Assembly (NCBI GenBank): GCA_003224855.1 | Contig: QHZY01000013.1 | Location: 1-38,613 of the forward strand | Length of the DNA: 38,613 nucleotides | Source: Acidobacteriota bacterium | GTDB lineage: Bacteria; Acidobacteriota; Terriglobia; Terriglobales; Acidobacteriaceae | Direction: 5' to 3' | Part shown: in pieces, positions 13,869 through 18,786 of the stretch | Layout of the letters: every line of letters begins with the position of its first letter | How positions within the stretch are numbered: the first letter of the stretch is position 1 | Position numbers and translations under genes: made by a program | The notes under the pieces: model-generated | What the model saw: the letters and a program-made list of their open reading frames with translations, nothing else | What the model was told of the DNA's origin: nothing | The model's database searches: none

Positions 13869-13925
13869 CAAATAAAATTTTCTTTATTTCTCCCTTGACC
13901 CTCACGTTACGTGATCCCCGACAAT
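13869..13925 (+). promoter_or_regulatory. MerR-type promoter/operator with 19-bp spacer
   Basis: TTGACC (13895-13900) and GACAAT (13920-13925) are separated by 19 bp, the lengthened spacer that MerR-family activators untwist. The spacer is centred on the perfect palindrome TCACGTTACGTGA (13902-13914). An AT-rich inverted repeat (AAATAAA/TTTATTT, 13870-13889) sits where an UP element would be. The gene 46 bp downstream encodes a MerR protein, so autoregulation is likely. Confidence 0.7.
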
Positions 13926-13971: not shown

Positions 13972-14844
13972 ATGGCTTACACAGTAAAAAAAGTAGCCGC
14001 GATGTCGGGCGTCAGTGTGCGCACGCTGCATTTCTACGATGCGACGGGCCTGCTGAAGCCCGCCTATTGCCGGGCGAATGGCTACAGGTTCTACGAGGAG
14101 CCACAGCTCTTGACCCTCCAGCAGATCCTGTTCTACCGAGAGCTGGGATTCGAGCTGAAGCAGATTGAACGAATCCTGGGCCAGGCCGATTTCGAGAAAG
14201 TCGCTGCCCTGCAATCGCACCGGAAGGTTCTGCAAAAAGACGTCGCTCAGACGCGCACGTTGATTGAAACCATCGACAAAACTATCAAGCACTTAAAAGG
14301 AACAAAGAAAATGAAGAGCGAGGAGATGTTTCTTGGCTTCAGCGTCGCCGCGGGGAAAGACCGATCAGGTGAACACATCAGACTCGGCGGCGAACCGAAT
14401 GATTGTAAGGTGTCTGTACAGGACACTGATGGCGCAATGTGTGTTTTCGAGTTTACCGGCGGAGGCGGCGGGCCGCGCCACCTTCACCACGACCAGGAAG
14501 AGTGGATCTACATCATTGATGGCGAGTTTCAATTTGAGGTTGGTGAGAAGCGCTATCGAGTGGGGCGCGGTGAGTCCGTTTTCATACCGCGCAAGGTTCC
14601 TCACGTGTGGGCCTGCGTGAGCGGGAAGCCGGGCAAGATTATTAATGTGTACCAACCCGCAGGGAAGATGGAGGATTTCTTCCGCGAATTAGGCAAGTAT
14701 CACGGCAAGCCATACGTCCATGAGGCGCTCTCGATTGATGAATTTCGTCAGTTGTTCCACGACCACGGGATGGATCTTCTCGGCCCACCCCTCCTGGGAA
14801 AATGGAAAGTCGAAGAAGACGGACGAATCAGAGAGATCACCTAA
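13972..14844 (+). CDS. MerR-family regulator fused to a cupin sensor domain
   Basis: This 290-residue protein has an N-terminal MerR winged helix (residues 1-70: YTVKKVAAMSGVSVRTLHFY), a dimerisation coiled coil (about 72-110), a short linker KGTKKMKSEEMFLGF, and a C-terminal single-domain cupin (about 145-220). Cupin metal ligands are complete: His170, His172 and Glu176 in GPRHLHHDQEE, and His211 in FIPRKVPHVW. The linker resembles the one in TipA-like MerR proteins, where a TipAS domain would follow. An internal ATG (14311, Met114) preceded by AAAAGGA could produce the cupin alone. A 19-bp-spaced promoter with palindrome lies upstream. The ligand is unknown; small organic acids or sugars bound through the cupin metal are possible. 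Confidence 0.88.
   Translation: MAYTVKKVAAMSGVSVRTLHFYDATGLLKPAYCRANGYRFYEEPQLLTLQQILFYRELGFELKQIERILGQADFEKVAALQSHRKVLQKDVAQTRTLIETIDKTIKHLKGTKKMKSEEMFLGFSVAAGKDRSGEHIRLGGEPNDCKVSVQDTDGAMCVFEFTGGGGGPRHLHHDQEEWIYIIDGEFQFEVGEKRYRVGRGESVFIPRKVPHVWACVSGKPGKIINVYQPAGKMEDFFRELGKYHGKPYVHEALSIDEFRQLFHDHGMDLLGPPLLGKWKVEEDGRIREIT
14295..14313 (+). promoter_or_regulatory. Internal SD and ATG at the MerR/cupin boundary
   Basis: AAAAGGA (14295-14301) is followed after 9 nt by an in-frame ATG (14311-14313). Initiation here would give a 177-residue protein consisting of the linker and the cupin, analogous to TipAS made from tipA by internal initiation. No experiment supports it here. Confidence 0.4.
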
Positions 14845-17563: not shown

Positions 17564-18664
17564 TCAACGGTTCTCGATCGCCAGCAAGCTCTTTTTTCTC
17601 TCGATGCCCCATCTGTATCCGCCCATTTCTCCGCTCTCGCGCACCACGCGATGGCATGGAATCGCCACCGCCACCGGATTGGTCGCGCACGCACGCGCCA
17701 CCGCGCGGCTGGCCGTCGGCTGGCCGATAGCCTTCGCCACCTGTGAGTAAGACCGGGTCGCTCCGAAAGGGATCGACTGCAGGTACGCCCAGACACGACG
17801 CTGAAAAGCTGTTGCCTGAATGTCCAGCGGCAGCGCCTTGTTCAGTTTCTGTCCCGCCATCTGATGAAGCAGGCTTACTTTCCATTCATTCATAGCAGCG
17901 TCATCGCGCTTGCGGTTGGCAAACGGGAACTCATGCTTCAGTCCCTGTTCCAGTTCCTCATCGGTATCGGCAAACTGTATGGCGCAGATGCCCTTGTCGG
18001 TAGCCGCAATCAGCATTCTTCCCAGCGGCGAATCCGCAAACGTATAGCGAATGGGCGCGGCAATCGCGCCCCGGCGATAGGTATCAGGTGTCATTCCCAG
18101 CTGCGCCGAGGTGCGTTCATACAAACGGCTGCTGGAACTGAAGCCCGCGTCGTACATGGCGCGGGTGACGTTCCGTCCGGCCTGCAGATCGCGCTTGAAC
18201 TGTTTCATGCGGCATGAATCAGCATAGGCGCGCGGGCTTACGCCCAGCACCGCTTTGAAAGTGCGTTGCAGGTGGAACGGGCTTTGCCGAAACTCTTTGC
18301 TCAGCCGCTGCAACGTAACTGGTTCATCGAGGTGCTGTTCGATGTACCGGCATATTGCCTTTACCATCTCCGTTTGACGGCCGGCACCGGTCGCCTGCGG
18401 ACGGCAACGCAAGCAGGCACGGTATCCGGCATGTTCAGCATCTTGCGGCTTGCTGAAAAACATTACATTCTCCCGCCGCGGACGCCGCGATGGGCACGAT
18501 GGCCGGCAGTACACGCCGGTCGACGACACCGCGAACACGAATTCTCCATCGCGGTTCGCATCACGATTCAAGACCGCTTGCCACTGTGGGTCTGTCGTGG
18601 GCTTATGTTCAATTTTCGGTTGCATTTCCATAGTGAGTATCGCATCGGTATTCATAGTTTCCAT
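17564..18664 (-). CDS. ada: Ada: bifunctional DNA alkylation-repair methyltransferase and transcription activator
   Basis: This 366-residue protein (from ATG at 18664) has all Ada parts. The N-terminal Zn/methyl-acceptor domain carries four Cys in VYCRPSCPS and YRACLRCRP (Cys53, 57, 84, 87). An AraC-type HTH follows (about 95-185: LQRLSKEFRQSPFHLQRTFK), then the O6-methylguanine methyltransferase domain with AIPCHRVV (Cys337). It removes methyl groups from phosphotriesters and O6-methylguanine and activates repair genes. The start is uncertain: TTG at 18724, ATGs at 18664, 18655 and 18631 are in frame; GGGAGG lies 15 nt before 18664. No alkA-type gene is adjacent. Confidence 0.92.
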   Translation of the reverse strand: METMNTDAILTMEMQPKIEHKPTTDPQWQAVLNRDANRDGEFVFAVSSTGVYCRPSCPSRRPRRENVMFFSKPQDAEHAGYRACLRCRPQATGAGRQTEMVKAICRYIEQHLDEPVTLQRLSKEFRQSPFHLQRTFKAVLGVSPRAYADSCRMKQFKRDLQAGRNVTRAMYDAGFSSSSRLYERTSAQLGMTPDTYRRGAIAAPIRYTFADSPLGRMLIAATDKGICAIQFADTDEELEQGLKHEFPFANRKRDDAAMNEWKVSLLHQMAGQKLNKALPLDIQATAFQRRVWAYLQSIPFGATRSYSQVAKAIGQPTASRAVARACATNPVAVAIPCHRVVRESGEMGGYRWGIERKKSLLAIENR

Positions 18665-18786
18665 AGAGTAGAATGCGTTCCTCCCATGGACTATCCGAAG
18701 CTTGCGGTCAAAGCGATTCACCAAACGCTTTATTTTCTGCGCACATGCGTGCTACTCTGCGGCTTCATCACAACCAGGAGAATTGG

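Follow-up and report, generated by a model that had tools for sequence, protein, structure and literature searches.

A TipA-type MerR regulator gene with a cupin in place of TipAS and a conserved candidate internal start

The window analyzed here is a stretch of 38,613 nucleotides from an Acidobacteriota bacterium. It contains a gene in which a MerR HTH and a coiled coil are followed by a complete cupin with the residues H170, H172, E177 and H211 (Table 1). Pfam assigned residues 3-69 to MerR_1 (E 1.7e-15) and residues 158-227 to Cupin_2 (E 1e-17), with no other significant domain in between. TipAS (PF07739) was not found in the protein at E <= 1, and a profile search for PF07739 in the entire genome of this organism gave no match. 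The calculated masses are 33.06 kDa for the long form and 20.06 kDa for a form starting at Met114. A preliminary description had proposed a MerR DNA-binding half joined to a complete metal-binding cupin and predicted products of about 33 and 20 kDa; the domain analysis and the computed masses agree with both. Elsewhere in the window (17564-18724, reverse strand) lies a gene that, by reading only, encodes an Ada-type-like protein with a metal-binding N-terminus, an AraC HTH and an O6-alkylguanine transferase end with PCHRV.

Table 1. Features of the MerR-cupin locus with their positions in the window.
Feature	Position	Strand	Basis
-35 element TTGACC	13895..13900	+	TTGACC in 8/8 fusion genes and most MerR-TipAS siblings
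19-bp spacer with operator dyad TCACGT-T-ACGTGA (13902-13914)	13901..13919	+	spacer length identical in 8/8 fusions and 12/12 siblings compared
-10 element GACAAT	13920..13925	+	located 46 nt before ATG1
MerR-cupin fusion gene, 290 aa, 33.1 kDa (long product)	13972..14844	+	Pfam MerR_1 and Cupin_2
TipA-type MerR HTH and coiled coil, residues 1-113	13972..14310	+	phmmer, structure alignment
Internal Shine-Dalgarno (SD) AAAAGGA, 9 nt before ATG114	14295..14301	+	present in 8/8 fusions; Gly110 GGA in 8/8
ATG of Met114, candidate internal start for a predicted cupin-only form	14311..14313	+	Met114 invariant in 8/8 fusions and 12/12 siblings
Junction peptide MKSEEMFLGF, apparently inherited from the TipAS side	14311..14340	+	aligns with M-x-x-E/D-x-x-x-G-F, the TipAS start, in L011-L019
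Predicted short product: cupin alone, 177 aa, 20.1 kDa	14311..14844	+	free-standing relatives span the same cupin region
Cupin metal site H170 (14479-14481), H172 (14485-14487), E177 (14500-14502), H211 (14602-14604)	14479..14604	+	motif, conservation

When 84,980 species genomes were scanned, seven further full-length MerR-cupin proteins came to light, with an overall identity of 66-77% to the protein of the window. One originates from Bryobacteraceae (L004), four from Verrucomicrobia (L005, L006, L007 and L010) and two from Planctomycetota (L008 and L009). According to Pfam, MerR_1 and Cupin_2 are both present in all eight fusion proteins and TipAS (PF07739) is found in none of them at E <= 0.001. 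Among 396 genomes of the phylum of the window that were sampled with the full protein, its own genome was the only fusion match. No additional full-length fusion was detected in 388 genomes of the phylum of G397 (L005), in 392 of the phylum of G401 (L009) and in 200 genomes of the order of G396 (L004). The earlier view of such fusions as a matter of the Acidobacteriota was too narrow, as most of the others belong to Verrucomicrobiota and Planctomycetota. The family is rare and patchy, with solitary members over three phyla, and this distribution suggests a lateral transfer of the gene. None of the viral contigs searched encodes a relative, and the phages searched gave matches to the MerR half only. 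Among plasmids, the candidate with the best coverage (H4 from Paenibacillus, spanning 70% of the query) was rejected as an independent fusion, since its translated C-terminal half lacks a cupin motif. A search of the open-access literature found no paper on MerR-cupin proteins.

Using phmmer, the MerR half matched SkgA (1.6e-28), MtaN (5.1e-25) and TipA (7.1e-16), and also the Lmo MerR protein 3qao. Structure alignment with VIA-align gave similar Z scores for MtaN (1r8d; Z 14.2, rmsd 0.9 over 72 residues) and for TipAL-N (2vz4; Z 14.3, rmsd 8.0 over 100 residues, the helix orientation being unsure). The protein has the N-terminal MerR HTH of the TipA/Mta/SkgA subfamily that characterizes the TipA class, but not the C-terminal TipAS domain (PF07739). 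Because the N-terminal domain is MerR_1 and not XRE/HTH_3, the protein does not belong to the XRE-cupin regulators either.

An over-long spacer of 19-20 bp with a dyad is the hallmark of MerR-activated promoters (PMC10189885). A promoter of this type, with a 19-bp spacer and the dyad CTCACGT-T-ACGTGAT, precedes the fusion gene, as is characteristic of the TipA class, and the arrangement TTGACC-N19-(-10) with a dyad is present in all eight fusions. The siblings compared, which are close MerR-TipAS relatives, possess a TTGAC-type -35 element (TTGCCC in L016), a spacer of exactly 19 bp with a dyad and a -10 element. The pattern TTGACCCTSACGTWRCGTKAT, allowing up to two mismatches, occurs a single time in the own genome (a MAG of about 92% completeness), at the fusion promoter. 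Six of the seven other fusion genomes likewise have a single occurrence, not counting two additional sites. One of these sites belongs to a MerR-TipAS paralogue in G397 and the other is a contig-end site in G399 (L068), with no recognisable MerR reading frame downstream before the contig ends. A reversed control pattern gave no matches; targets with an operator more degenerate than two mismatches lie outside the reach of this search. The flanking genes differ at every fusion locus, and no conserved neighbors were found as target genes. Since the operator is present essentially only at the fusion gene and no neighbors are shared, the gene itself is the sole common candidate target, which fits with a putative self-contained autoregulated system. 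In the verrucomicrobial genome G397 a MerR-cupin gene (L005/L030) and the MerR-TipAS paralogue (L031/L032) are located behind near-identical operators, and cross-regulation of the two genes is possible. The distance from the -10 element to ATG1 is 45-46 nt in the majority of fusions and reaches 123 nt in L009. It shrinks to 10 nt in L004 and to 8 nt in L008, so that the mRNA for the long form may be almost leaderless in these two.

The same genome scan yielded proteins (L011-L021) which match only the MerR half, from residue 1 to about 125-150, with 57-71% identity; over residues 1-123 the identity to MerR-TipAS siblings is 60-75%. Five of them were scanned for domains and contain TipAS (PF07739) in place of the cupin (E 1e-23 to 1e-27). 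The closest MerR halves occur in MerR-TipAS proteins whose junction, SD and promoter agree with those of the fusions. Past the junction Met-x-x-E/D-x-x-x-G-F the fusions read '(S/T)VAAGxDR...', which is the start of free-standing cupins of the same family. A shared junction that leads directly into a cupin start points to a swap of TipAS for a cupin immediately behind the short helix with which TipAS begins. The fusion is therefore best read, from the sequences, as a TipA-class gene with the TipAS domain replaced by a cupin. In phylogenies computed separately for the two halves, MerR and cupin, a branch sets the eight fusions apart. Its support is weak (68/73 and 65/88), with recovery in 64-66% of the bootstrap trees; a single origin of the fusions is likely. 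One MerR-TipAS gene of this group (L020) stems from a record titled Chlamydia trachomatis MAG. It resembles genes of environmental Parachlamydiales and the label is probably wrong.

In all eight fusions, from three phyla, Met114 is preceded at a distance of 9 nt by AAAGGA or AAGGGA, and SD and Met are found at the same codon in 12 of 12 close MerR-TipAS relatives. As background, an SD at suitable spacing precedes 5 of 194 internal in-frame ATGs in the long ORFs of the window, ATG114 included, and 6 of 208 in the ORFs flanking the homologues, a rate of 2.6-2.9%. The AAAAGGA and in-frame ATG pointed out at the junction in the preliminary description are hence in place and above chance. Both elements are kept in all seven homologues, and a search for fusions lacking them found none among the seven. 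The TipAL/TipAS-style layout on a cupin holds at the level of sequence, the same signal being present in the MerR-TipAS siblings of the MerR half. The internal SD is of moderate strength (about -5.6 kcal/mol in duplexfold); the SD of ATG1 is weak in several fusions and does not reach the strength of the internal SD. The region from -30 to +20 around ATG114 belongs to the least structured 1-3% of the windows of the gene in seven of the eight fusions (11% in L005). It is AT-rich, and the lysine-rich coding sequence adds to the low structure.

A junction SD with an in-frame ATG was also seen in most of the MerR-TipAS proteins examined (L043, L044, L046-L052, L054, L055, L057 and L069-L074), divergent ones included, from Acidobacteriota, Actinomycetota, Bacillota and Pseudomonadota. 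In divergent examples GAGGT or GAGGA is located before '..EVI(N/D)M' or 'EEIHM'. Dual starts may thus be general across the MerR-TipAS class. In a distant protein of this type, L073 from plasmid p1 of Sphingomonas sp. NY01, the internal Met and the SD are both gone; it represents a natural single-product counterpart among the MerR-TipAS type proteins. Three MerR-GyrI proteins used as controls (L058, L026 and L027), too few for a statistic, contain no SD and ATG at the junction, and L026 has such a pair at codon 139.

The reading which we favor, and hold to be probable, is a TipA-class autoregulated system in a single gene, in which a cupin replaces TipAS and one mRNA provides both the regulator and the free cupin. 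By analogy with TipA and AlbA, the dimeric long form would sit on the dyad within the 19-bp spacer in the absence of ligand and keep its own promoter off. Binding of a ligand to the cupin would cause the regulator to distort the DNA and switch its own gene on. Translation of the mRNA would begin at two sites, at ATG1 for the regulator and at the internal SD/ATG114 for the cupin alone. The chief output of induction would then be an excess of free cupin, which as the effector could remove the ligand either by sequestration, similar to TipAS and AlbAS, or by turnover.

The cupin half is a cupin barrel with a 3-His-1-Glu motif and belongs to the metal cupins (Cupin_2, PF07883, 1e-17). H170, E177 and H211 are invariant in all eight fusions, and H172 is conserved in seven. 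An AlphaFold2 model built from the eight sequences is of moderate confidence (mean pLDDT 69, pTM 0.51), and its domain orientation is untrustworthy. The structure matches of residues 124-271 were dominated by cupin folds, with the quercetinases YxaG, Ni-QueD and fungal 2,3-QD as the best ones (Z 12.8-13.3, rmsd 2.2-3.0, 127-136 residues). Other cupins reached a Z of about 11, and Foldseek agreed on the quercetinases. As judged from this model, the window cupin appears to resemble quercetinases most, in fold only, and the ligand is not indicated by this likeness. A possible but rather improbable alternative is that the free cupin is a quercetinase-like dioxygenase, or a lyase or isomerase, which destroys the inducer, so that the gene would form a substrate-induced detoxification or catabolic unit. 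Two points speak for an enzyme: the metal motif is complete, its glutamate having the spacing found in HxHx4E cupins, and all of the best matches are quercetinases. Against it, the sequence identity to quercetinases is only 16-21%, a common fold is no proof of function, the structure model is of only moderate confidence, and L010 has Asn for H172, so that at least one member may hold the metal differently. The more specific proposal, that one and the same cupin serves as MerR sensor and as separately made quercetinase-like metalloenzyme removing the inducer, with TipAS displaced and the TipA promoter and dual start retained, we regard as doubtful.

It is unlikely that only the full-length regulator is made and that the protein is an ordinary one-component sensor, with the SD-like string and Met114 as relics of a TipAS ancestor under protein constraint. 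Many MerR regulators do have a single product, the homologues are of common ancestry, and HLxGT and Met114 are conserved as protein. The internal SD overlaps the conserved coding sequence HLKGT and is thus partly dictated by the protein, and AAGG is easily spelled by KG dipeptides. The codons argue against such an explanation. Gly110 is encoded by GGA in all eight fusions, although GGC is preferred; from the glycine usage of each gene elsewhere the chance of this is about 5e-7, a value overstated by the relatedness of the homologues. Synonymous sites are near saturation elsewhere: among 61 invariant-residue columns with at least four synonymous codons, 59 vary in codon, and the two that do not are Gly70 with the preferred GGC and Gly110 with the unpreferred GGA. 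Other K/R/E-G dipeptides in the fusion genes use GGA in just 6 of 29 cases. Because GGA is fixed at Gly110 while 59 of the 61 columns vary, the SD appears to be conserved at the nucleotide level, independent of the protein. In the sibling L019, LKKE replaces LKGT, yet AAGGA and Met are retained. We infer that the internal SD and ATG114 form a start signal which should yield the cupin alone as a predicted second product.

Very improbable is an explanation of the internal SD as a translational pause that aids folding or dimerization of the MerR half, although it is situated exactly between the domains. Met114 is invariant amid varying flanking residues, and SD and ATG keep a constant spacing of about 8-9 nt within an unstructured region, as expected for initiation and not for pausing. 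In addition, the homologous position is a proven start in tipA of S. lividans (PMC7762955). An artificial joining of two genes in the source, a MAG of 274 contigs, can be dismissed, as the same fusion with the same junction is present in seven independent assemblies from three phyla.

Returning to the TipA-class system with a cupin, its layout, in which a gene with a promoter of its own provides a regulator and, by way of an internal start, the free sensor, has hitherto been treated as a trait of TipAS drug-binding proteins. Its survival of a swap to an unrelated fold, in three phyla, suggests a portable design in which any ligand-binding domain could act as sensor and sink. A known one-gene design for sensing and capture seems to have been re-tooled for another ligand, and the promoter with its operator adds the autoregulation half of the TipA analogy. 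For MerR-TipAS proteins, whose short form has so far mostly been assumed by analogy, GGA at one codon and the joint loss of SD and Met offer an easy test of how general dual starts are.

Among the systems compared, the quercetinases Ni-QueD (5flh) and YxaG (2h0v) have the cupin fold and the HxHx4E...H metal site in common with the fusion at about 20% identity. Free-standing Cupin_2 proteins ending with HGMxLLGPPL (L002 from the own genome, L024 and L039-L041) comprise the same cupin and C-terminal extension with 42-50% identity, but lack a DNA-binding half. XRE-cupin and AraC-cupin regulators (PuuR, PsdR, AraC) likewise combine an HTH with a cupin sensor. Their HTH and DNA mechanism are unrelated to the distortion by MerR proteins, they are not derived from TipA, and we know of no internal start of the MerR-cupin kind in them. 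AlbA of Klebsiella oxytoca is similar in that its operator is located within a 19-bp spacer and nowhere else in its genome (PMC10189885). A long and a short form have been postulated for AlbA (PMC10189885, PMC6078987), the short form still to be identified in vivo according to the authors (PMC6078987). In place of a cupin, AlbA has a TipAS-like helical domain in duplicate as its effector half. Streptomyces lividans tipA itself uses two start codons to produce TipAL together with TipAS, the predominant form, and TipA proteins have been described as minimal autoregulated systems (PMC7762955). With the TipA class (SkgA, Mta, AlbA) the fusion shares the subfamily of MerR HTH and coiled coil, the junction peptide, the internal SD and Met at the homologous position, the promoter with a dyad in the 19-bp spacer and the lack of linked targets. 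It differs in having a cupin of quercetinase-like fold where the TipA class has TipAS (PF07739), and binding of the thiopeptide type would not be expected for MerR-cupin proteins.
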